From: Clostridiaceae bacterium
GTDB taxonomy: Bacteria; Bacillota_A; Clostridia; Acetivibrionales; Acetivibrionaceae
Direction: 5' to 3'
Assembly (NCBI GenBank): GCA_012513545.1
Contig: JAAZCB010000347.1
Location: forward strand, 1 to 9,177
DNA length: 9,177 nt
Shown one piece after another: positions 1 through 9,177 of this stretch. The stretch's first letter is position 1. Each line of letters begins with the position of its first letter. The position numbers and the translations under genes were made by a program. The notes below the pieces were generated by a model that made no database searches, was not told where the DNA came from, and saw only the letters and a program-made list of their open reading frames with translations.

Positions 1-840
1 ATGGAAAAGGCGAGTTATATAATTTTTCTCTTTGGCGTTGTTTTAGGAGGATTAATATTTACAGGTAAGGCAACAATTGGTTCTTATAGCATGTCATTTT
101 CCTATTATATGTTATTGCCCACAATCATTTTTTTAAATAAGTTTTTAGACAAATTGTCTTTGCAACTATTTATCATTACACTGGTTTCATTATTAATAAT
201 CCTATCTTTTGGCTCCAGAGGTCCAATTTTATGTGTGGCAGTATTTATTTTTCTTAAGCTTATAAGACCAGGCACTCAAATTAGTTTTAGAAAAGCAATT
301 GGCTATTTGGTAGTAACGGTAATAGGATTTAGTGGACTTATCTTCTACAATAGAATTTTTGAATCAATATATGATCTCCTATTGCTTTTTGGAATTAAAA
401 GCAGAAATATAACATTGCTTTTAAATGAAGGAGTTCATTGGAGTGGTCGTGATTTATTGTATGAAAATGTTATAAAGGAGATAATTGAAAACCCAATTAT
501 GGGCATTGGTTTAGCTGGCGATAGGGGCATTCTTGGTGGCAGATATGTCCATAACTTTTTTATCGAAGTAATTGCAAATTTTGGTTTTATAATGGGAGGT
601 ATACTATTAATTGCATTTCTATTATTGGTATTAAAATCGTTAATTCAAAACAATAGGGTGAAATATAATATGATCATTATTTGGTTATGCATAGGATTCA
701 TACCTTTAATGGTCAGCGGTTCTTATTTGACAAGTATGAATTTCTGGATATTTCTAGCTCTGATTTTAAACGGATTGTTTATACGCAACAAGAGCAATAT
801 GATTTCAAAAGACGAGGTGTTTTATGAATCCATTGGTTAG
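1..840 (+). CDS. Wzy/O-antigen ligase-like polysaccharide polymerase, probably N-terminally cut by the window edge
   Basis: Integral membrane protein of the O-antigen ligase/Wzy_C type, which joins polysaccharide repeat units or transfers chains on the outer face of the membrane. The 279 visible residues are mostly hydrophobic, with likely membrane segments near 5-20, 32-46, 55-69, 74-88, 100-116, 186-212 and 222-262. A GSRGP motif at 71-75 follows a membrane segment, as is usual in this family. The extracytoplasmic loop around 130-185 has GRDLLY (149-154), NPIMGIG (164-170) and HN at 184-185, matching the loop pattern of WaaL/Wzy proteins. Family members are usually around 400 residues, so the ATG at base 1 is probably internal and the true start lies upstream. 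The 3' end overlaps the glycosyltransferase by 17 bases. GC is very low (about 28-30%). The context of glycosyltransferase and flippase favours Wzy polymerase over ligase, but sequence alone does not decide this. Confidence 0.8.
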   Translation: MEKASYIIFLFGVVLGGLIFTGKATIGSYSMSFSYYMLLPTIIFLNKFLDKLSLQLFIITLVSLLIILSFGSRGPILCVAVFIFLKLIRPGTQISFRKAIGYLVVTVIGFSGLIFYNRIFESIYDLLLLFGIKSRNITLLLNEGVHWSGRDLLYENVIKEIIENPIMGIGLAGDRGILGGRYVHNFFIEVIANFGFIMGGILLIAFLLLVLKSLIQNNRVKYNMIIIWLCIGFIPLMVSGSYLTSMNFWIFLALILNGLFIRNKSNMISKDEVFYESIG

Positions 841-1813
841 TGTTTGTTGTATTACATACAATCATGAGAAGTATATTGCTGAAGCTATCGAGAGTTTTAT
901 TATGCAAAAGACAGATTTCCCGATAGAAATTATAATTCATGACGACGCCTCAACAGATAATACAGCGAATATCATCAAGGGATATGAAAAAAAATATCCC
1001 GATATAATTAAACCAATCCTACAAGAGGAAAATCAATATTCTCAAGGGAAAAGCCCAATGAGAGATTTTGTAATTCCCTTTGTTGAAGGGAAATATATTG
1101 CTACATGTGAGGGTGATGATTATTGGACAGATGTTGAAAAATTGCAGAAGCAGGTTGACTTTATGGAAAACAATAAAGATTATACAATGTGTTTTCATAA
1201 AGTAGAGGTAGTTGACATATATAAAAATCCAGTCGGACGCTATTTAGGGCTTAAGAAAAATTTCTCAAAGAAGATCAGTGTTGGTGATGCGGCAACCGGA
1301 GGGGTTGTACATGTGTCTTCAAGGTTGATAAAAGCAGATTTTTCTAAAAAGCAACGACCAGGTTGGATTAGAAATGCCAAACATGGCGATTATGCCTTTG
1401 CATTATATAGTGCTGCAGAAGGGTTGGTCTTTTATATGAATGAGGTTATGTCAGCACATAGAGTAGGGGTAGCAGATTCTATGATGACAAAATTCGGAAC
1501 GGAATTCTCCAAAGAAAAAATTATTGAATATTACTTAAATAGAATTGAAATATTAAGACTTGCAGATGAATACTACAACTATAGCTACCATCATGAGATA
1601 AAAAAGGTTAACCTATCAAGTCGGAGCATTATTGCTCTTTTAGAAAATGATTACACTGTTTCAGCTAGAAAGATATATATGGAATATATTAAATACAATG
1701 GTTGGGTAGGTTTCGCCAAAATGTTTGTTATAAATAAGCTTCCCAAAACAGCTGATTTGTTAGTCAGATTAAAAGGTTTTCTAGTGAAAAACAGCAGGTG
1801 GAACAGGTGGTAA
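824..1813 (+). CDS. Family 2 glycosyltransferase
   Basis: Inverting GT-A fold glycosyltransferase of family GT2, which uses a nucleotide sugar to extend a lipid-linked oligosaccharide on the inner face of the membrane. The N-terminus VSVCCITYNHEKYI (5-18) is the classic GT2 first strand. DDAS at 40-43 fits the nucleotide-binding aspartates, and EGDDYW at 96-101 is the DxD-like metal site of the subgroup with this motif. HGD at 187-189 and the AHRVG stretch near 211-215 fit the acceptor side of the fold. No clear membrane span is seen; the basic C-terminal tail may help membrane association. At 329 residues the gene looks complete. The ATG at 824 has GAGGTG at 814-819 and lies inside the end of the polymerase gene, so the two are likely translationally coupled. 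Its end overlaps the flippase start. The sugar donor cannot be predicted. GC is low, like the polymerase and unlike the flippase. Confidence 0.9.
   Translation: MNPLVSVCCITYNHEKYIAEAIESFIMQKTDFPIEIIIHDDASTDNTANIIKGYEKKYPDIIKPILQEENQYSQGKSPMRDFVIPFVEGKYIATCEGDDYWTDVEKLQKQVDFMENNKDYTMCFHKVEVVDIYKNPVGRYLGLKKNFSKKISVGDAATGGVVHVSSRLIKADFSKKQRPGWIRNAKHGDYAFALYSAAEGLVFYMNEVMSAHRVGVADSMMTKFGTEFSKEKIIEYYLNRIEILRLADEYYNYSYHHEIKKVNLSSRSIIALLENDYTVSARKIYMEYIKYNGWVGFAKMFVINKLPKTADLLVRLKGFLVKNSRWNRW
1794..1804 (+). repeat. 11-base direct repeat, copy 1 (5' edge of flippase gene)
   Basis: GCAGGTGGAAC occurs here and again at 3281-3291. The two copies bracket the flippase gene. Both include an AGGTGG ribosome-binding core, so the likeness may come from function and not from recombination. 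Confidence 0.4.
1796..1801 (+). promoter_or_regulatory. Shine-Dalgarno site of the flippase gene, inside the glycosyltransferase 3' end
   Basis: AGGTGG lies 5 bases before the GTG at 1807. It favours that start over the in-frame GTG at 1798, which overlaps the site itself. It forms part of an 11-base word seen again just after the flippase gene. Confidence 0.55.
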
Positions 1814-3249
1814 ATGAACATACCAAATCCCGTGTCCTTTCCTCCCTCTTCTGGAAGTTCATGGAGCGGGGCGGGACTCAGGGGATACAATTTATTGTTC
1901 AAATAATATTAGCCAGGTTGCTTCTGCCGGCAGATTACGGCATCATAGCACTGGTAGTAGTGTTTACCTCAATAGCTGCTGTATTTGTCCAGAGCGGGCT
2001 GAATACTGCGCTTATTCAAAAGAAGGATGCAGATGAAGTGGATTTTTCATCGGTATTCTATTTGAGTTTATCACTGGCTTTAATAATATACATACTTCTT
2101 TTCCTTGCTGCACCATCCATTGCTAAATTCTATGCCATTCCTCAGATAACACCGGTATTTAGAGCACTGTCTATTACATTATTATTTGGGGCCTTTAATT
2201 CGATTCAGAATGCGGTTATAGCTAGAAACTTGCAGTTTAAGAAACTGTTTTTCAGCAGTACTGGTGCTATTCTAGTATCTGGAGCCGTTGGTATTTATAT
2301 GGCCTATACAGGTTATGGCGTATGGGCTCTGGCTGGACAGCAAATAAGCAATCAGTTCCTTGTTACTTTGATTCTTTGGTTTACGGTAAAATGGCGTCCC
2401 CGGTTAGTATTTTCAATCAGAAGGGTTAAAAGCCTTTTCTCATACGGGTGGAAGCTTTTGCTGTCTGGATTGATCGATACCGTTTATCGGGAATTACGAA
2501 GTCTTATCATTGGTAAAATGTATGCTCCAGCAATGTTGGGTTTTTATGACAGAGGCAAGCAGTTCCCTTCCCTTATAATATCCAATATTGATGGCTCGAT
2601 ACAGTCGGTAATGTTCCCGGTATTATCAGCTGAGCAGGATAACAGGCCCCGGGTCAAAGATATGATGAGACGTGCTATTGTAACCAGTTCATTTGTGGTT
2701 TTCCCGGCTATGGTAGGATTGGCTGTTATAGCAGAGCCCCTGGTCAAACTCTTGCTTACTGATAAATGGCTGCCAGCGGTGCCCTTTTTACAGATATTTT
2801 GTGCCGTTTACGCATTAAGGCCCATACATACAGCTAATCTATCGGCTATAAAAGCATTGGGATATAGTGATGTATTTTTAAGATTGGAGATCATCAAGAA
2901 GATTATAGGATTATCTATATTGGCAGTAACTGTGTTCTATGGTGTTTATGCTATAGCATTGGGGCAGATCCTGAGTGGAATAATATCTTCTTTTGTAAAT
3001 GCGTATCCAAACAAAAGGCTCCTCAATTACAGTTACCTAGAACAATGGAAAGATATTTATCCTGCATTGATTTTATCTTTAGTAATGGGAGCTGTGGTTT
3101 ATAGCATCAAATGGATGGGTTTATCGGTAATATTGACACTGACTGTCCAGATATTAGTTGGAATCATTATATATTTTGCAATGGCCTGGATATTTAAACT
3201 TGAAAGCTTTCAGTATTTGATCAGTACAATGAGAAATTACATCGGCTAG
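1807..3249 (+). CDS. Wzx-type polysaccharide flippase (MOP superfamily, WzxC/TuaB-like)
   Basis: Polytopic exporter of the MOP superfamily that moves lipid-linked repeat units across the membrane before polymerisation by a Wzy protein. The start region LFWKFMERGGTQGIQF followed by ILARLLLPADYGIIALV is characteristic of the WzxC/TuaB group. About 480 residues with many hydrophobic helices fit the expected 12-14 spans. The middle segment with FYDRGKQFP and the following helices matches the second half of the transporter. I prefer the GTG at 1807 because AGGTGG at 1796-1801 sits 5 bases upstream; an in-frame GTG at 1798 would overlap that site and has poor upstream sequence. Either way the gene overlaps the end of the glycosyltransferase. 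Its GC is about 40-45%, against about 29% for the two genes before it, which suggests a different origin. Specific substrate is unknown. Confidence 0.9.
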   Translation: MVNEHTKSRVLSSLFWKFMERGGTQGIQFIVQIILARLLLPADYGIIALVVVFTSIAAVFVQSGLNTALIQKKDADEVDFSSVFYLSLSLALIIYILLFLAAPSIAKFYAIPQITPVFRALSITLLFGAFNSIQNAVIARNLQFKKLFFSSTGAILVSGAVGIYMAYTGYGVWALAGQQISNQFLVTLILWFTVKWRPRLVFSIRRVKSLFSYGWKLLLSGLIDTVYRELRSLIIGKMYAPAMLGFYDRGKQFPSLIISNIDGSIQSVMFPVLSAEQDNRPRVKDMMRRAIVTSSFVVFPAMVGLAVIAEPLVKLLLTDKWLPAVPFLQIFCAVYALRPIHTANLSAIKALGYSDVFLRLEIIKKIIGLSILAVTVFYGVYAIALGQILSGIISSFVNAYPNKRLLNYSYLEQWKDIYPALILSLVMGAVVYSIKWMGLSVILTLTVQILVGIIIYFAMAWIFKLESFQYLISTMRNYIG

Positions 3250-3257
3250 ATAATCAA

Positions 3258-3263
3258 TAGGAG
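3258..3263 (+). promoter_or_regulatory. Shine-Dalgarno-like site for a short competing ORF
   Basis: TAGGAG stands 7 bases before the ATG at 3271, which opens a different frame from the regulator gene. On sequence it is at least as good a start signal as the TTG at 3296. Confidence 0.4.
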
Positions 3264-3280
3264 AATCACTATGGCATGGG

Positions 3281-3291
3281 GCAGGTGGAAC
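3281..3291 (+). repeat. 11-base direct repeat, copy 2 (after flippase gene)
   Basis: Exact copy of GCAGGTGGAAC at 1794-1804, found 32 bases after the flippase stop codon. It contains the AGGTGG that serves the TTG start at 3296. Confidence 0.4.
3283..3288 (+). promoter_or_regulatory. Shine-Dalgarno site deciding the TTG start of the regulator
   Basis: AGGTGG lies 7 bases before the TTG at 3296. It supports that unusual start, which gives the natural N-terminus of the helix-turn-helix domain. Confidence 0.55.
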
Positions 3292-3295
3292 TATT

Positions 3296-4336
3296 TTGGA
3301 CATTGTGAAGGTTGGAAAAGCAATAGCATATTTGCGCAAACAGGCTGGATATACCCAAAAGGAGCTCGCCGAACTCATCGGGATAAGCGATAAAGCTGTA
3401 TCTAAATGGGAACGCGGCGTTGGGTTGCCCGATATTGCATATTTGGGAAGGTTGGCTGTTTTGCTCGACACCGACACAGACAGTCTCCTTGCAGGTGATG
3501 CTATGTCTCATGGTAAACGTTGGTCCGGCTTGTTGATTTTTCCGAAAAACTCATATGATGTCAAAGCCTCTACACAGGTATACGGCAAACCAGTAGTAAA
3601 TTTTCTGCTCAGCTATTTTCTTCTCGCAGGGATAAAAAATATAGTCGTTGCCGGAAGCGAGGAAGATAAAGATTATCTTGATTCCGAGTTTGGGGATGGC
3701 AATAAAATAGGTATAAATCTATCCTGTTTGGATGATTTTTATGATATTGATTCTGTTATAGATTGCAGCAATGTGATGGTGGTTTTCGGTCGTACCTTCA
3801 TATACGGAGCAAGTATGACTCGATTATTTCGAAGAGCTATGGCTAATAATGATCGTGCAACTGTCCTTTCTATTCCGAAAAGTGTAGAAGATAATTTGCA
3901 ACGATTATATTTTGATGTCAATAAGAAAGTTGTAAATATGGATAGCCTTGAAAAGAGAGAAACCCGTTATGATTATGCTCAGATCCCCATTTTGTTTTGT
4001 CCCAAATCAATACTTAACCGGGTGCTTGTGACAAATAAAACTAGACAGGGCCTGCTGTCAATCAACCTTTCTGACCCCAGTTTTCGTAACGAATTCTTGT
4101 ATACAGATTTTCCGGATCGAGGTTATATAGAATTTCCGATAGACACTTTAGATGATGTTGCAGATGCATCAATTTTTGTCAGAATGCTGGAGAAATCTTC
4201 TCGCTCTATTGTTTACTGCCTTGAGGAGATAGCATGGAGAAGAGGGATGATAAGCCTTGAACAGATGAAACAGCTAGGTAATGAAAAGGCAGGTACTGAA
4301 TACGGTAATTACATATTGAGTTTGTGCGATAGGTAA
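3296..4336 (+). CDS. HTH (Cro/C1-type) protein fused to a degenerate RmlA-like nucleotidyltransferase domain
   Basis: A 346-residue two-domain protein. Residues 5-62 are a Cro/C1-type DNA-binding domain: YTQKELAELIGISDKAVSKW (19-38), followed by ER and LPDIAYL. Residues 76-346 follow glucose-1-phosphate thymidylyltransferase (RmlA) along their length: YGKPVVNFLLSYFLLAGIK (96-114) matches the DKPMIYYPLSxLMLAGI region, GDGNKIGINLS (133-143) matches GDGSxxGLxLx, and CLEEIAWRRGMI (308-319) with YGNYIL (336-341) matches the RmlA C-terminus. The catalytic signatures are altered. The glycine-rich GGxGTRLxPxT loop is FPKNSYDVKAST (82-93), GDN is GRT (165-167), and EKP is EKR (219-221). The Asp of the DTGT region may persist at 283. 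It is therefore probably a regulator that binds a sugar nucleotide or sugar phosphate without making it. It starts at TTG. Its targets are unknown; the adjacent operon and polysaccharide genes are natural candidates. Confidence 0.85.
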   Translation: MDIVKVGKAIAYLRKQAGYTQKELAELIGISDKAVSKWERGVGLPDIAYLGRLAVLLDTDTDSLLAGDAMSHGKRWSGLLIFPKNSYDVKASTQVYGKPVVNFLLSYFLLAGIKNIVVAGSEEDKDYLDSEFGDGNKIGINLSCLDDFYDIDSVIDCSNVMVVFGRTFIYGASMTRLFRRAMANNDRATVLSIPKSVEDNLQRLYFDVNKKVVNMDSLEKRETRYDYAQIPILFCPKSILNRVLVTNKTRQGLLSINLSDPSFRNEFLYTDFPDRGYIEFPIDTLDDVADASIFVRMLEKSSRSIVYCLEEIAWRRGMISLEQMKQLGNEKAGTEYGNYILSLCDR

Positions 4337-4528
4337 TAGTTTTTAAACACACGAAAACAATATTTTATTTCAATCCATTTGCATCACTAGAAATATAAGG
4401 TAAACGAATAGTCGGTTGCTTTTTTTATTTGTGCCAGTAAGCTCGTAATAGGAGATGTGTTGTTTGCTAATGTGCAATACTCAGCCTTAATTTCTGGTTT
4501 AATAGGATATACGAAAAAGGATAATGGA
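4337..4528 (+). other. Intergenic region before the five-gene metabolic operon
   Basis: This 192-base gap is the largest in the window and the most likely place for the promoter of the downstream operon and for any operator bound by the HTH protein. I see no convincing -35/-10 pair. A T run at 4420-4426 has no clear stem before it. TATTTC at 4366-4371 and GAAATA at 4390-4395 form a weak inverted repeat with 18 bases between the arms. A Shine-Dalgarno-like AGGAG at 4450-4454 is followed by GTG at 4457 and TTG at 4460, both in frame with the dehydrogenase. Confidence 0.45.
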
Positions 4529-5497
4529 ATGAAAACTATTCTTCTTACTAATAAATATGACTCTGGACCTTATGAAATCATGAAATCTGTTGTTCCAGAT
4601 GATCTTGAACTGATTATGCTTGATGAAGTCACACAATCAGATTTGGAAAGAAAAGCCCCTAAGGCGGACTACATTTTAGCCAGCGGGCGATTAAATATAA
4701 ACGAAGCTGTCCTCACTAAAGCAACAAAACTTAAAATGATACAACGTACAGGTGTAGGCTTGAACTCACTGGACTTCGATGCGATTAATCTGCGTAATAT
4801 ACCGGTATACGTTAATAAAGGAGTCAATGCAGATAGCGTTGCGGAACATACAATTATGCTAATGCTTGCCTGCCTGAAGAAGTTGCCAGTTATCAGCAAC
4901 AATACCAAATCTGGCATATGGAATAAGCAGGCACAAGGCGTGCTGAATAGAGAACTTGGAACACAGACAGTCGGTGTTATTGGCATGGGGCATATAGGTC
5001 AGAAGGTGGCCAGGCTTCTCAGAGCATTTGGGGCAACGGTATTGTACTATGACAATAATAGAAAAGTTGAGGTCGAAGAGAATATTGGAATCAGGTACGT
5101 TTCATTGAAAGAGTTGTATACTACTTCAGACGTCATTACGCTGCATTGTGATCTAACGAATGAGAACAAAGGATTAATCAATCCATTTGCAATTGAAAAG
5201 ATGAAGAATGGAGTAGTGATTATTAACACAGCTCGTGGGCAACTCGTTGATGAAGATGCTTTGGCAGTCGCTTTGGCATCTGGCAAAGTTGCATTTGCGG
5301 GGCTTGATGTATTTGGGGTGGAGCCGCCGGCACATAATTCAGCCCTTTTATCCCTTGAAAACGTTATTGCAACTCCACATATTGCTGGAGTGACCTTTGA
5401 TTCGTTCTATAGAATGATGAGAGATGCTATGAGGAACATTGAGTTATTTGATATGGGGCGATTTGAAGAAATCGAAGAACATAGACTTGTGCTGTAA
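4529..5497 (+). CDS. D-isomer-specific 2-hydroxyacid dehydrogenase (phosphoglycerate dehydrogenase-like)
   Basis: NAD(P)-dependent cytoplasmic oxidoreductase that interconverts a 2-keto acid and a D-2-hydroxy acid. The Rossmann motif GMGHIG is at 152-157 and an acidic YYD follows the next strand, favouring NAD. The catalytic set is intact: Arg236 in TARGQ, Glu265 in GVEPP and His284 in TPHIAG. RTGVGLNSLD near 72-81 is the usual substrate-side loop. At 322 residues it has the minimal catalytic form, without the ACT domain of many SerA proteins, so I do not call it serA. I chose the ATG at 4529 because MKTILLTN is where the family fold begins and AAAAAGG lies 8 bases upstream. In-frame GTG 4457 or TTG 4460 would add about 24 unconserved-looking residues. 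It heads a five-gene run; the next gene starts 9 bases later. The true substrate is unknown. Confidence 0.88.
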   Translation: MKTILLTNKYDSGPYEIMKSVVPDDLELIMLDEVTQSDLERKAPKADYILASGRLNINEAVLTKATKLKMIQRTGVGLNSLDFDAINLRNIPVYVNKGVNADSVAEHTIMLMLACLKKLPVISNNTKSGIWNKQAQGVLNRELGTQTVGVIGMGHIGQKVARLLRAFGATVLYYDNNRKVEVEENIGIRYVSLKELYTTSDVITLHCDLTNENKGLINPFAIEKMKNGVVIINTARGQLVDEDALAVALASGKVAFAGLDVFGVEPPAHNSALLSLENVIATPHIAGVTFDSFYRMMRDAMRNIELFDMGRFEEIEEHRLVL

Positions 5498-5501
5498 GGA
5501 G
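5496..5501 (+). promoter_or_regulatory. Shine-Dalgarno site overlapping the dehydrogenase stop codon
   Basis: AAGGAG begins inside the TAA stop at 5495-5497. It is 5 bases from the ATG at 5507 and only 2 from the ATG at 5504, so 5507 is the better start for the MmgE/PrpD gene. The overlap suggests coupled translation. Confidence 0.6.
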
Positions 5502-5506
5502 ATATG

Positions 5507-6835
5507 ATGAAAACAACAGATGCATTCGTGGATTATTTGATTGAAATAAATGAGGTGGATCTTACTCCCAAGATTAAGAATACAGCACGCAATTGTTTGC
5601 TTGATTTTCTCGGGTGCGTTTATGTTGGGGCAACAATGTATTCTGGGAAACTTGATATGCTCACATCAAGGAGCGGAGATTCATCTGTAATTGGAACAAA
5701 TGCTAAGGCTGACCCGGCTATAGCAGCCTTCATTAATGGGTTTCATGCTCATTCAACAGAACTTGACGATGGCCATAGATTTGGCATGATACACCTTGGT
5801 TCTGTGATTATTTCAGCAGTACTTGCGATTTTTGAGTCGCAAGCCCTTTCTATGGATTCATTGCTGAAAGGTCTTGTGGTTGGTTATGAGGCCGCAGCTC
5901 GTTTAGCGATTTCTATCCAGCCGGGACATAAGAACAAGGGTTTTCACACAACCGGGACCTGTGGCACAATAGGGGCTGCTGTGGGATGTTCAATTGCAAT
6001 GGACTTTGACTATGCACAAATGAAAACAGCGATTTCTGCGGCTGCTGCCAGTGCTGCTGGAATACTAGAGATTCAGGAAGATGCTTCGGAATTGAAAGCA
6101 TATAATATAGCGCATGCAGCAATGTCTGGTGTTATGGCTGCATTGGTGGGAAGTACAGGATTAAATTGCCCGGATGATATTTTGTTCGGTGATCGCGGGT
6201 GGATGAAGTTGTTCAGTGATACTTTAAATGAGAAGAAAATCACAGAAAAGACCACCTATTACGAAATTGAACGCATATATAGAAAACCATATGCCGCTTG
6301 CAGACATTGTCATTCTGCAATAGAAGCGGTGCTTAAAATAACAGAAAATAATAGCCAGACTGCCGCTCTGGTCAATAGCATAGAGGTATCAACATATGAA
6401 CTTGCTATAAAAGGGCATGACCACAAGGAAATAAGAGGTATTGCTTCAGCAAAATTAAGTATGCCGTACAGTGTAGCTGCTGCATTTGTGTTGCACAGTT
6501 GTTCCCTTGATGCGTTTGATCAAATAAGTCTAGCCAATCCAGATATTATCGCATTGACCCAGAAAGTAAAAGTAATAGAAAATGTGGATTTTTCAAACCT
6601 CTCATCTGAAAAACGAATAGCTGAAGTTAGAATTGATTACATGGATGGCAGCGAAGCGATTCACAGAGTTGACTATGCCAAGGGTGACCCGGAGAATCCG
6701 ATGACAGATGCGGAAATACGGGAAAAATTCAAATTCATTATGGGATATTGCGGATTAACAAAAAAAGCGCAGGCGATTTTACAGTTGTTTGAAAATCCCT
6801 ATATCGATGTTGATAAATTTGTATCGATTTTATAA
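5507..6835 (+). CDS. MmgE/PrpD-family protein (2-methylcitrate dehydratase / cis-aconitate decarboxylase-like)
   Basis: Member of the MmgE/PrpD family, whose known members dehydrate 2-methylcitrate, decarboxylate cis-aconitate to itaconate, or isomerise related tricarboxylates. Using the ATG at 5507 (442 residues), the family signature is present: NGFHAH at 77-82, ELDDGH at 85-90 and a further His at 96. These are followed by GFHTTGTCGT (145-154), Lys197 in SELKAYN, KPYAACRHCH (260-269) and MPYSVAAAF (319-327). Those positions correspond to residues lining the active site of cis-aconitate decarboxylase, so the protein is probably catalytically active. Length is normal and complete. The family is broad and motif matches do not give the substrate. 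No methylcitrate synthase or lyase is near, so a role in propionate breakdown is unlikely. Its place between a 2-hydroxyacid dehydrogenase and an ATP-grasp ligase suggests that it acts on a hydroxy di- or tricarboxylic acid. Confidence 0.9.
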   Translation: MKTTDAFVDYLIEINEVDLTPKIKNTARNCLLDFLGCVYVGATMYSGKLDMLTSRSGDSSVIGTNAKADPAIAAFINGFHAHSTELDDGHRFGMIHLGSVIISAVLAIFESQALSMDSLLKGLVVGYEAAARLAISIQPGHKNKGFHTTGTCGTIGAAVGCSIAMDFDYAQMKTAISAAAASAAGILEIQEDASELKAYNIAHAAMSGVMAALVGSTGLNCPDDILFGDRGWMKLFSDTLNEKKITEKTTYYEIERIYRKPYAACRHCHSAIEAVLKITENNSQTAALVNSIEVSTYELAIKGHDHKEIRGIASAKLSMPYSVAAAFVLHSCSLDAFDQISLANPDIIALTQKVKVIENVDFSNLSSEKRIAEVRIDYMDGSEAIHRVDYAKGDPENPMTDAEIREKFKFIMGYCGLTKKAQAILQLFENPYIDVDKFVSIL

Positions 6836-6839
6836 GGAG
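6834..6839 (+). promoter_or_regulatory. Shine-Dalgarno site overlapping the MmgE/PrpD stop codon
   Basis: AAGGAG overlaps the TAA at 6833-6835 and lies 9 bases before the ATG at 6849. The 9-base word TAAGGAGAT recurs at both junctions of this part of the operon (5495 and 6833). Confidence 0.6.
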
Positions 6840-6848
6840 ATGTGAAAA

Positions 6849-7736
6849 ATGGAAGCGACGAGAAATTTCTTAAAATCGATTGGCTTGCCCGGTGGCGATG
6901 CTTATGATTTGCCGACTTCTGAAAAGCGGTTTGTTGATGGTGGGCAGTATCGTTTTGAAGTGCCAGGTATCCAGGGACCTAGGTCAATGGAAGCTTTACT
7001 GGGGACCATGGACAATTATGGTATCCATCTGCATCGTGTTACCCAGACCAGAGGCATCATGATGCTCACGGATAATGAAATTATAGAAATGGTTCGTCTG
7101 TCAAAAGAGGCACAGACAGATCTTATCCTTGCTATCGGCCCTCGTGCAACAACGGACACCAGTGCATCTGTTAATACACCTGAAGGTGTCCGCATGGGAT
7201 ACAGGCTGCGCGGACAGGAACAAATTGTTAGAGCAGTAGAGGATGTCAAACGAGCAGTGAGTTTCGGATGTAGTTCATTCCTCGTATATGACGAGGGATG
7301 TCTATGGCTTCTTAACGAAATGCGTAAAGCCAGACAGATACCTGCAAATTGCCAGTTCAAAGTTTCTGCTCATACCGGTCACGGTAATCCTTGCTCGGCA
7401 AAACTTTTAGAGATGATTGGTGCTGACTCCATCAACCCAGTTCGTGATATCCAATTGCAGATGTTGGCGGCTATGCGTCAGGCGACTGATATTCCTCTTG
7501 ACATCCATACCGAGAATCCGGCATCATCTGGCGGCTTTATACGCCATTATGAAGTGCCAGAGATGGTACGTATTGCAGCACCAATATATTTGAAAATCGG
7601 TGGTTCGGTTGCACAAACCCACAGCTGGGATTCAACAATTGATGATGCGAAGAAGAGGGCAAAGCAGGTTTTGCTGGTAAAGCGAATGCTTGATAAATAT
7701 TACCCTGAGGCTGTTCAATCGCCAATAGGAATATAA
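6849..7736 (+). CDS. Conserved protein of unknown function, probable TIM-barrel; relatives sometimes labelled U32 peptidase
   Basis: A 295-residue soluble protein with no signal peptide or membrane span. From memory, its close relatives share the opening LPGGDAYDLPTS (13-24) and are auto-annotated as 'peptidase' or U32 family; I could not check this. The alternation of short strands and helices suggests a TIM barrel: LILAIGPRA (92-100), SFLVYDEG (143-150), KVSAHTGHGNP (171-181), SINPVRD (194-200), PLDIHTENP (216-224) and IYLKIGG (246-252). The charged and polar ends of these strands (R99, D148-E149, H175, H178, N180, H220, E222, N223) could form a metal or phosphate-binding active site. No proteolytic activity is implied by what is visible. 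The PEP mutase/isocitrate lyase signatures are not seen. Start ATG 6849 has AAGGAG 9 bases upstream. Placement inside the operon implies an enzymatic step in the same pathway. Confidence 0.75.
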   Translation: MEATRNFLKSIGLPGGDAYDLPTSEKRFVDGGQYRFEVPGIQGPRSMEALLGTMDNYGIHLHRVTQTRGIMMLTDNEIIEMVRLSKEAQTDLILAIGPRATTDTSASVNTPEGVRMGYRLRGQEQIVRAVEDVKRAVSFGCSSFLVYDEGCLWLLNEMRKARQIPANCQFKVSAHTGHGNPCSAKLLEMIGADSINPVRDIQLQMLAAMRQATDIPLDIHTENPASSGGFIRHYEVPEMVRIAAPIYLKIGGSVAQTHSWDSTIDDAKKRAKQVLLVKRMLDKYYPEAVQSPIGI

Positions 7737-7743
7737 AATAAAT

Positions 7744-7748
7744 GGAGA
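7744..7748 (+). promoter_or_regulatory. Shine-Dalgarno site favouring the ATG at 7757
   Basis: GGAGA lies 8 bases before the ATG at 7757. It falls just inside the frame opened by the ATG at 7742, which itself has only a distant TAGGA upstream. The downstream start also gives the usual ATP-grasp N-terminus. Confidence 0.5.
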
Positions 7749-7756
7749 AGTTGCAA

Positions 7757-9010
7757 ATGAATAAGAAAACAGCAATAGTGCTTGGCGGAACAAGTCCGCA
7801 TATCGCTTTGATTCAAAAATTGAAAGACAGGGGATATTTCACTATTTTGATTGATTATCTGGATAATCCCCCAGCAAAACAAGCAGCAGATCTTCATATT
7901 CAAGAAAGTACACTTGACAATGATGCAGTGTATCGTGTGGCGAAGGAGTACGATGCAGATCTTGTAATGAGTGCTTGTGTCGATCAGGCTAACATCACAG
8001 CTTGTTATGTGGCTGAAAAATTGGGGTTACCACACCCGTATAGTTTTGAGTTGGCATCCAATATTACAAATAAAGGATATATGAAGAGGGTTATGTTTGA
8101 TAATGACATCCCAACGTCTAAGTATATTTATCTCGAACCAGATCAGGAGTTACCTGATATAGATTTACATTACCCTGTTATGGTTAAACCAGCGGATTCA
8201 TGTGCTGCTTCTGGAATAAAAAAAGCTGTTGGTGAGGCTGAAATGCTACGGTTTTACTCGGAAGCAAAAAAAATTAGCCGAAATGGCCGTGTTGTAATTG
8301 AGGAATTTGTCAAAGGTGACGAAGTTAGTGTTTATTCATTTGTGTCGCATGGAAAAGCTGAAATCATTATGATTTCGCAAAGAATGAGTGTCATTGAAGG
8401 TCAAGATCAGGTGATAAAGTGCTATGCGACCTTAGCGCCTGCACCAATAAGCAAGATTGTATTTGAGAAAATTCAATCTTGTTGCACGAAGATTGCTAAT
8501 GCTTTTGGATTAGATAATACTCCATTGCATGTTCAGGTAATGATTGATAAAGACGAAATTGAAATCATTGAAATTGCACCGAGGGCTGGTGGTGGAGTTA
8601 GTTATCAGACTATCAAATCAAATACGGGATTTGATATTTTGGAAGCAACTATTGATTCTTATTTGCAGGTACCAGTTAAAGTGCATTATGGAGAACCTAA
8701 GTATTACTACGCCGTAAACATACTGTATGGTATACCATGCGTTTTTGGTCATGTTGATGGTGAAGATGAGCTCATGGCTAATGATATAATAGAGAGTTTC
8801 CATTATCACAAAACCAAGGGTATGAAGATTACTTCTGATCGAGCAAGTGGGGGCAGGATAGCAGCAGCCGTTGTTAAAGGTAAAACTAAAGAAGAACTAC
8901 TGTCAAAAATAAAATTTATGATGAAAAAAATAGAGGCATATGACGACAAGGGAAATCCTGTGCTGAGAAAAGACCTCTATTTACGTGACTTTAGAGACCT
9001 TTCAAATTAG
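7757..9010 (+). CDS. ATP-grasp family carboxylate ligase
   Basis: ATP-grasp enzyme, expected to activate a carboxylate as an acyl phosphate and join it to an amine, thiol or similar acceptor in the cytoplasm. Counting from the ATG at 7757 (417 residues), the N-terminal pre-grasp Rossmann domain starts KKTAIVLGGTSPHI (3-16). The ATP-binding core shows TNKGYMK (104-110), YPVMVKP (139-145) with Lys144 as the likely nucleotide-binding lysine, and VVIEEFVKGDEVSV (178-191). HVQVM is at 258-262 and EIAPRAGGG at 272-280, with the metal-binding glutamate and conserved Arg. The layout is closest to the carbamoyl-phosphate-synthetase/PurK/amino-acid ligase branch. Residues past about 310 form a C-terminal domain seen in several amino-acid ligases, including SGGRIAAAVVKG (364-375). 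Substrates cannot be deduced. It lies 20 bases after the preceding gene and 30 before the next, so it is probably in the same operon. Confidence 0.87.
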   Translation: MNKKTAIVLGGTSPHIALIQKLKDRGYFTILIDYLDNPPAKQAADLHIQESTLDNDAVYRVAKEYDADLVMSACVDQANITACYVAEKLGLPHPYSFELASNITNKGYMKRVMFDNDIPTSKYIYLEPDQELPDIDLHYPVMVKPADSCAASGIKKAVGEAEMLRFYSEAKKISRNGRVVIEEFVKGDEVSVYSFVSHGKAEIIMISQRMSVIEGQDQVIKCYATLAPAPISKIVFEKIQSCCTKIANAFGLDNTPLHVQVMIDKDEIEIIEIAPRAGGGVSYQTIKSNTGFDILEATIDSYLQVPVKVHYGEPKYYYAVNILYGIPCVFGHVDGEDELMANDIIESFHYHKTKGMKITSDRASGGRIAAAVVKGKTKEELLSKIKFMMKKIEAYDDKGNPVLRKDLYLRDFRDLSN

Positions 9011-9025
9011 AGATAAATATTAATT

Positions 9026-9031
9026 GGAGGG
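9026..9031 (+). promoter_or_regulatory. Shine-Dalgarno site of the CitE-like gene
   Basis: GGAGGG stands 9 bases before the ATG at 9041. An in-frame TTG at 9035 is only 3 bases away, so the ATG is preferred. Confidence 0.55.
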
Positions 9032-9040
9032 CAATTGACA

Positions 9041-9177
9041 ATGTTCCATCATCAATACAATCCGGGGTACGAATTCGTCAAGGGACCCGTCGAATTTAAC
9101 AAGTATACAGATAGGAGTCTACTGCAGTATTGTTTGGGTGCAACGATGTATATGCCCGGTACGAAAGATTTCGCACA
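9041..9177 (+). CDS. HpcH/HpaI aldolase/citrate lyase (CitE)-like protein, N-terminal fragment cut by window end
   Basis: Only the first 45 codons are visible, running open to the edge of the window. After a polar lead (MFHHQYNPGYEF), the stretch LLQYCLGATMYMPGTKDFA (27-45) matches the first barrel strand of CitE-like proteins. It is closest to the branch whose members read LGATLYMPAT, a type I recall near TerD-type stress operons, rather than the LLFVPG form of true citrate lyase. The family makes or breaks a carbon-carbon bond next to a keto acid or acyl-CoA. The strong Shine-Dalgarno site and 30-base gap place it in the operon with the ATP-grasp ligase. The catalytic residues lie outside the window, so the identification is moderate only. 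Confidence 0.6.
   Translation, partial: MFHHQYNPGYEFVKGPVEFNKYTDRSLLQYCLGATMYMPGTKDFA

Follow-up and report, generated by a model that had tools for sequence, protein, structure and literature searches.

The closest described relatives of the gene cassette reported here, which begins in a 9,177-nucleotide stretch of a Clostridiaceae genome (contig JAAZCB010000347.1, positions 1 to 9,177; hereafter the window), come from phosphonate biosynthesis, from the MmgE/PrpD and CitE enzyme families, and from the Ter-associated operons. In the phosphonate pathways that depend on phosphoenolpyruvate (PEP) mutase, a 2026 preprint (PMC12871164) describes three enzymes that can pull phosphonopyruvate onward, namely a decarboxylase, an aminotransferase and a 2-hydroxyacid dehydrogenase, and these pulls are nearly the same choice as that between the three alternative arms of the cassette. 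Unlike those pathways, however, the cassette core lacks PEP mutase and contains a TIM-barrel protein (TIM), a two-subunit fumarase-like hydratase (FumA and FumB, together FumAB), an MmgE/PrpD protein (PrpD) and a C-C lyase. The solved structures closest to the cassette PrpD by sequence are those of IDS-epimerase, cis-aconitate decarboxylase and 2-methylcitrate dehydratase, the window protein being nearest to IDS-epimerase and B. subtilis IRG1, but the cassette PrpD scores far under the NCBIfam PrpD cut-offs (49.7 vs 575 and 38.9 vs 458 bits). Likewise, fold search assigns the lyase to the CitE/malyl-CoA-lyase fold, but it shares 16% identity with CitE, malyl-CoA lyase, CLYBL and citramalyl-CoA lyase in alignment, falls far under the CitE and RipC cut-offs, and had no match in a PDB sequence search at E 0.01. 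Its Pfam family, PF15617 (C-C_Bond_Lyase), reportedly was found in Ter-associated operons by Anantharaman, Iyer and Aravind in 2012, where an ATP-grasp enzyme is also its partner and where TerD, TelA and phosphoribosyltransferase genes are neighbors. Annotation of selected cassette neighbors brought up none of the other Ter components, and partnership with PrpD, FumAB, TIM and a 2-oxo-acid arm sets the cassette lyase apart from these operons.

A recurrent seven-gene cassette

A preliminary description of the window had proposed a five-gene cassette of dehydrogenase, PrpD, probable TIM barrel, ATP-grasp ligase and CitE-like lyase. All five families were correctly named, as judged by Pfam, an AlphaFold2 fold and comparison with the related locus L025, and in the open reading frame (ORF) list of the window the genes are consecutive, in this order and on the plus strand (Table 1). 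The intergenic gaps had been given as 9, 13, 20 and 30 bases; those of 13 and 30 stand, while the listed starts yield 6, 13, 5 and 30, the values 9 and 20 arising from a second ATG in PrpD and in the ATP-grasp gene.

Table 1. Cassette genes in the window and the genes upstream of them.
Predicted product	Position	Strand	Basis or remark
D-2-hydroxyacid dehydrogenase; arm A, would reduce a 2-oxo acid	4529-5497	+	2-Hacid_dh (PF02826), 205 bits
MmgE/PrpD dehydratase/epimerase/decarboxylase-like enzyme; probably arm-specific	5504-6835	+	MmgE_PrpD_N/C, 167/117 bits
TIM-barrel protein, 295 residues; putative shared trunk enzyme	6849-7736	+	AlphaFold2 fold
ATP-grasp enzyme; proposed carboxylate-amine ligase	7742-9010	+	ATP-grasp_4, 62 bits
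PF15617 C-C lyase, 5' end (45 codons), runs off the window	9041-9177	+	Comparison with L025
Wzy_C/O-antigen-ligase protein	1-840		Upstream context of the cassette
GT2 glycosyltransferase	824-1813	+	Upstream context of the cassette
Wzx-type flippase	1798-3249	+	Upstream context of the cassette
HTH_3/RmlA-like fusion	3296-4336	+	Upstream context of the cassette

Species genomes were scanned using only the TIM protein, which brought up 270 loci, and the best 80 were analyzed. Their record titles include Bacillota, Bacteroidota, Fibrobacterota, Spirochaetota and Lentisphaerota, that is, at least five phyla; most loci are metagenome-assembled, with binning errors possible. Neighboring genes were called with a longest-ORF script that produced false reverse-strand ORFs in GC-rich loci and missed some genes, and because of these errors the counts of arms and core genes are based on tblastn matches and identity thresholds. 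PrpD, the C-C lyase, FumA and FumB were all located within 9 kb of TIM and on its strand in 57 of the 80 loci, three of the four in 15 and one or two in eight, where several contigs end within the operon. The preliminary description had made its proposal depend on co-occurrence in other genomes, and this was borne out. The cassette that recurs has seven genes rather than five, however, as FumA and FumB are both present in 71 of the 80 loci. Four loci (L007, L008, L025 and L029) show exactly the gene order of the window followed by FumB and FumA, L011 shows the same order with extra genes, and of the 66 loci that have both FumB and the lyase, 54 have FumB as the gene immediately after the lyase. 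Judging from these layouts, FumB and FumA probably lie just past position 9177 of the window. The distribution is patchy, because only two of 299 genomes drawn evenly from the phylum of L003's genome encode a TIM of at least 70% identity; one of them is L003's genome, and both genes sit in full cassettes. At L080, where the C-C lyase was not found, a gene for an HMGL-like aldolase (PF00682; L080:10108-11088) lies beside TIM.

No published description of the pathway was found in the open-access literature, in agreement with the earlier statement that no described pathway has this gene set. The cassette is real and recurrent, apparently undescribed within the reach of these searches, and assembled mostly from known families.

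The exception is the TIM-barrel protein, for which neither Pfam (at E 0.001) nor NCBIfam offers a matching family. Its AlphaFold2 model (mean pLDDT 89.7) is a TIM barrel. The protein is distantly like U32 peptidases without reaching the Pfam gathering score of Peptidase_U32, and PDB sequence and profile searches gave no significant relative. Foldseek and VIA-align matched many unrelated TIM barrels with near-tied scores, from which no specific function could be read. The protein has 5544 relatives at E ≤0.001; the 120 listed are 82-100% identical to it, among them, at 84%, a protein of the commensal Blautia coccoides/producta.

The other members are easier to place. The 45 residues at the start of the window's lyase have no Pfam match of their own and are 87% identical to the start of the 379-residue L025 protein, which scores 374.5 bits with PF15617 (gathering score 28.4). 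In PrpD, residues D88, D89, H97, H148, K198 and H270 are kept in at least 90% of 70 aligned rows. FumA and FumB carry Fumerase Pfam domains. The L025 FumA exceeds the cut-off of the broader TIGR00722 (122 vs 100.65 bits) but falls under that for fumarate hydratase (NF004885; 120.6 vs 276 bits), and the L025 FumB is under TIGR00723 (85 vs 145 bits). With FumA so far under the fumarase cut-off, FumAB is therefore best described as a fumarase-like hydratase with another substrate, perhaps one more acidic than that of fumarase. The conserved Cys74, 200, 283 and 284, which are accompanied by many conserved Arg and His, would fit an Fe-S enzyme. The ATP-grasp enzyme has a weak match to LAL_C2 (22.5 bits, under the cut-off of 29.4). 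The D-2-hydroxyacid dehydrogenase contains the motifs GMGHIG (152), TARG (234), EPP (265) and TPH (282), which are of catalytic significance, and an in-frame GTG at 4457 offers a possible longer start.

Three alternative arms

Three types of 2-oxo-acid enzyme were found within 9 kb of TIM. Arm B, a phosphonopyruvate-decarboxylase homolog dependent on thiamine pyrophosphate (TPP), occurs in 49 of the 80 loci, 46 of which also have an aldo/keto reductase match; arm A, the D-2-hydroxyacid dehydrogenase seen in the window, occurs in 20, and arm C, an Ldh_2 dehydrogenase, in five; one further locus, L080, has both A and C. The dehydrogenase, previously counted as a member of the set, is thus one of three alternatives and not a fixed component. 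Arms A and B were never found together within 9 kb of TIM (0/80). No arm was detected in that range in five loci: flanks are short in L006, L042 and L047, whereas a D-2-hydroxyacid dehydrogenase of 36% identity is present in L015 and L049. Of the decarboxylases in the 49 arm-B loci, 11 were tested, and all of them scored above the cut-off of TIGR03297 (399.5 to 422.7 vs 312.5 bits); the window, as an arm-A locus, has no such protein. The Ldh_2 protein tested scored best with L-sulfolactate dehydrogenase (290 bits, below the cut-off of 500). A gene for a CTP_transf_3-type cytidylyltransferase (one tested) is present in the arm-B loci L032, L052, L062 and L066.

The substrates of all three arm families are 2-oxo or 2-hydroxy acids. 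That one arm can take the place of another suggests that they draw on a single 2-oxo acid bearing an anionic group. All three fit such an acid, and the hydroxy/keto-acid chemistry suggested in the preliminary description gains support. The PEP-mutase phosphonate pathways are similar in that they apply the same alternative pulls to an anionic 2-oxo acid, and the arm-B decarboxylases tested pass the TIGR03297 model.

Putative trunk and finishing genes differ in history

Phylogenetic trees were computed for TIM (81 rows, from the 80 loci and the window), the C-C lyase (72), FumA (70), FumB (72) and PrpD (70, from 69 loci and the window), rows with short proteins being dropped. Rows were labeled by arm, with L015, L047 and L049 set to A by hand, L048 kept as B, and L006 and L042 (no arm) as well as L080 (A and C) left unlabeled. 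The fewest label changes that explain the trees are 18 for TIM, 17 for FumA and 16 for FumB, as against six for the lyase and five for PrpD. In the lyase tree, all 45 arm-B rows fall on one side of a single branch (96 in the Shimodaira-Hasegawa-like approximate likelihood-ratio test), whereas the approximately unbiased test rejects a single arm-B clade, with p 4.6e-5 for FumA and p 1.7e-15 for TIM. Mean identities within and between arm classes are nearly equal for TIM (.858/.847), FumA (.711/.691) and FumB (.696/.682), and differ for the lyase (.746/.587) and PrpD (.484/.350). Seven positions of the lyase are fixed differently between arm classes (0 in 200 shuffles); there are none in TIM, FumA, FumB or PrpD. 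By these measures TIM, FumA and FumB have been exchanged between arms, whereas PrpD and the lyase follow the arm. FumB adjoins the lyase yet shows the pattern of TIM and FumA, so that linkage alone leaves the split unexplained. TIM and FumAB hence seem to behave as a shared trunk, with PrpD and the lyase as arm-specific genes, which changes the earlier reading of the locus as one uniform set. The whole explanation, in which a horizontally spread cassette combines one common trunk with finishing steps that can be exchanged, is in our estimate slightly favored.

Proposed pathway

From the gene set, the arms and the co-inheritance pattern we infer an order and direction of reactions, a common acid and a type of product. 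The trunk, consisting of the TIM barrel and the hydratase FumAB, would form an anionic 2-oxo acid of the type X-CH2-CO-COOH. In arm A, the D-2-hydroxyacid dehydrogenase would draw off this common acid as a 2-hydroxy acid, and the Ldh_2 dehydrogenase of arm C would probably give the same kind of product. In arm B, the TPP decarboxylase and the aldo/keto reductase would instead yield an alcohol that is one carbon shorter. PrpD and the CitE-fold lyase might then act on the arm-specific compound, by dehydration or epimerization and by C-C cleavage or formation, respectively. Finally, the ATP-grasp enzyme could activate the remaining carboxylate and join it to an amine, mostly of a surface-glycan sugar or its amino-acid substituent. 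That one acid is made and ligated in this way by a seven-gene cassette with a shared trunk and arm-specific finishing is a proposal we hold with a little more belief than doubt; the layout of the cassette is better supported than its chemistry. Methylcitrate- or citrate-type elongation, itaconate formation or degradation and trans-aconitate use were also weighed, as were the options that the common acid is oxaloacetate or that TIM couples pyruvate to fumarate in a Michael-type reaction. The evidence did not decide for any of them, and none is named here as the product.

The glycan setting was assessed from ORF clusters with one Pfam-tested member each, counts that may miss genes or include wrong members. 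On this basis, one or more of 13 glycan-gene clusters are present in 46 of the 62 loci that span 12 kb or more, and ATP-grasp clusters 7, 11 or 36 occur in 17 of 19 such loci with arm A, 22 of 35 with arm B and five of five with arm C. We read this ATP-grasp context as suggesting that in most cases the acid is joined to a glycan amine.

Several observations weigh against the proposed pathway and the division into trunk and arms. The arms are not strictly exclusive: L080 combines A and C, and in L048, the sole A/B exception over whole loci, some 10 kb separate the A genes from the B genes. Labels were assigned to the arms once the loci had been seen, and the thresholds were picked after a first listing. 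The C-C lyase is absent from its usual place in L028, L031, L035 and L080. All five trees are quick trees with many open forks, whose starred branches force only five (TIM), five (FumA) and three (FumB) changes of the B label, and TIM divergence is compressed because the loci are the best 80 of 270 TIM matches. Moreover, the arm labels are non-random on the trunk trees (18 changes vs a shuffled mean of 25.6 for TIM, 17 vs 22.0 for FumA and 16 vs 22.8 for FumB, with 0 of 200 shuffles as low in each case); exchange was therefore frequent but not free. For PrpD, in which no position is fixed differently at 90%, the evidence for the split is identity and the tree. Genes co-inherited with the arm might also act upstream of it rather than downstream. 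Lastly, 16 of the 62 long loci have no counted glycan cluster, a DctM-cluster transporter gene lies near PrpD in seven arm-B loci, and a LysR-cluster gene (one tested) lies near the cassette in six.

The exception L048 deserves a description of its own. Its arm-B cassette is complete, but about 9-10 kb upstream there are also an A-type D-2-hydroxyacid dehydrogenase and a PrpD (L048:8-2248), and the 20.9 kb of the locus contain only one TIM, a second one possibly lying beyond the locus edge. In L048, one trunk may feed both arms, or the upstream genes may belong to the margin of another cassette.

The polysaccharide link suggested in the preliminary description holds as a frequent setting, but an exclusive glycan role is weakened by the long loci without a glycan cluster and by the DctM genes. 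In these 16 loci, and with DctM and LysR neighbors, a free metabolite is therefore possible, and the cassette may also serve a role other than glycan decoration. The DctM-cluster genes belong to L032, L044, L046, L060, L062, L072 and L078 (PF06808 in the one tested) and are the nearest upstream gene found in six of the seven; L044, L046 and L072 have the LysR-cluster gene as well.

Such neighbors also favor a catabolic alternative, in which the cassette would degrade an imported di- or tricarboxylate, the arms would be electron sinks and the glycan setting would be incidental. Further support comes from more distant TIM proteins, sampled at 19 loci (L082-L100). At the eight loci with paralogs of 48-55% identity (L082-L089), a malic-enzyme-cluster gene is present in seven, a FumA-type gene in five and Ldh_2 in four, and TTT- or TRAP-like transporter genes were recognized by eye. 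Both FumA proteins tested there exceed the fumarate hydratase cut-off of 276 bits (420 and 434 bits), the Ldh_2 tested is again nearest to sulfolactate dehydrogenase, and the malic-enzyme protein tested scored 348 bits, under the model cut-off. TIM, a fumarase type and a 2-oxo-acid enzyme are thus paired outside the cassette too, in operons that look catabolic. The cassette FumA, however, is far under the cut-off that these fumarases pass (121 vs 276 bits), glycan-cluster genes accompany the cassette in the 46 long loci mentioned above, 44 of the 59 long loci with arm A, B or C have an ATP-grasp gene of cluster 7, 11 or 36, and decarboxylation followed by carbonyl reduction would be a more biosynthetic or disposal order. 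Catabolism is accordingly an unlikely main role, albeit one with a real chance of being right. TIM relatives in L082-L100 stand beside malic-enzyme/fumarase or PanB-type genes, the latter in seven loci with 32-45% TIM relatives (3/3 tested over the cut-off), which suggests that the distant relatives may form a wider uncharacterized family of 2-oxo-acid enzymes.

PEP mutase and the phosphonate question

The common 2-oxo acid might alternatively be phosphonopyruvate or sulfopyruvate that is formed independently of PEP mutase. Some glycans are known to carry phosphonates. The TIGR03297 scores of all 11 arm-B decarboxylases tested and the affinity of Ldh_2 to sulfolactate dehydrogenase would agree with such an acid. 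PEP mutase (TIGR02320) scored over the cut-off in 13 of the 80 cassette genomes (9/40 and 4/40), among them 10 of the 49 arm-B genomes, and two more of the 80 had weak matches; it was not found over the cut-off in 67 of 80 genomes and 39 of 49 with arm B, many of which are metagenome-assembled and maybe incomplete. With most decarboxylase-type genomes lacking a detected PEP mutase, the known phosphonate route is therefore unlikely. Decarboxylase and 2-hydroxyacid dehydrogenase are moreover known alternative pulls in the preprint cited above (PMC12871164).

Against this stands a comparison of the decarboxylases themselves. Nine of the 11 PEP-mutase sites from the first set of 40 genomes were examined, in seven genomes, and each has a phosphonopyruvate decarboxylase only 41-47% identical to the L001 cassette protein. 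Fifteen near-fixed differing positions and one gap column separate 38 cassette decarboxylases from the nine linked to PEP mutase; position 359, for instance, is Arg in 9/9 PEP-mutase-linked and Pro in 36/38 cassette proteins. Judged by these residues, the cassette decarboxylase probably acts on a related but different acid. In addition, none of the core genes was recognized as a phosphorus or sulfur gene, and carboxylates are the known substrates of the PrpD, CitE-fold lyase and fumarase families. A phosphonate or sulfonate identity of the common acid therefore seems improbable, and its synthesis by a new way in the cassette similarly so. Still less probable, in our view, is the specific case in which TIM and FumAB constitute a PEP-mutase-independent entry to phosphonopyruvate or sulfopyruvate and the arms yield glycan groups; if true, arms A and C would lead to phosphono- or sulfolactate-type and arm B to hydroxyethyl-phosphonate- or isethionate-type groups. 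In genome G037, a PEP mutase gene (L107:9033-9884) lies about 3.7 kb from the FumA of an arm-B cassette, and this site has its own, more distant phosphonopyruvate decarboxylase. The neighborhood speaks for a link to phosphonates, as a single case.

Chance co-travel of common metabolic genes on glycan islands, with no single pathway, would accord with the commonness of each cassette family and the movement of such islands between genomes, but it is highly improbable, because the association of five families on one strand in 57 loci, the separation of arms A and B within 9 kb of TIM, and the opposite histories of the neighboring lyase and FumAB genes call for a functional cause.

Upstream genes of the window

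The gene at 3296-4336 encodes an XRE-type helix-turn-helix (HTH) domain fused to an RmlA-like domain that lacks the GGxGTR motif, which is present in an RmlA control. The fusion has 2373 relatives at E ≤0.001, and none of the 120 listed, the window protein included, has the motif. It looks like a pseudo-enzyme sensor that may regulate glycan loci. Consensus scans of the window gave 18 promoter-like sites (shuffled mean 14.4, sd 3.9) and five terminator-like sites (shuffled mean 2.8, sd 1.6), values near, or slightly above, those of shuffled sequence.

Significance

For a pathway of gut, rumen and other anaerobic bacteria that is apparently undescribed, the cassette provides a layout that can be tested. 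It indicates which enzymes would form the trunk, which would carry out the finishing steps, and what class of compound to seek. A further implication is that the name phosphonopyruvate decarboxylase alone is a poor marker of phosphonate synthesis, because proteins that pass the model occur in many genomes without a detected PEP mutase; in the arm-B genomes of this kind the name is likely an over-annotation. More generally, when gene histories are compared within a single operon, they can hint at the sequence of pathway steps ahead of any chemistry.

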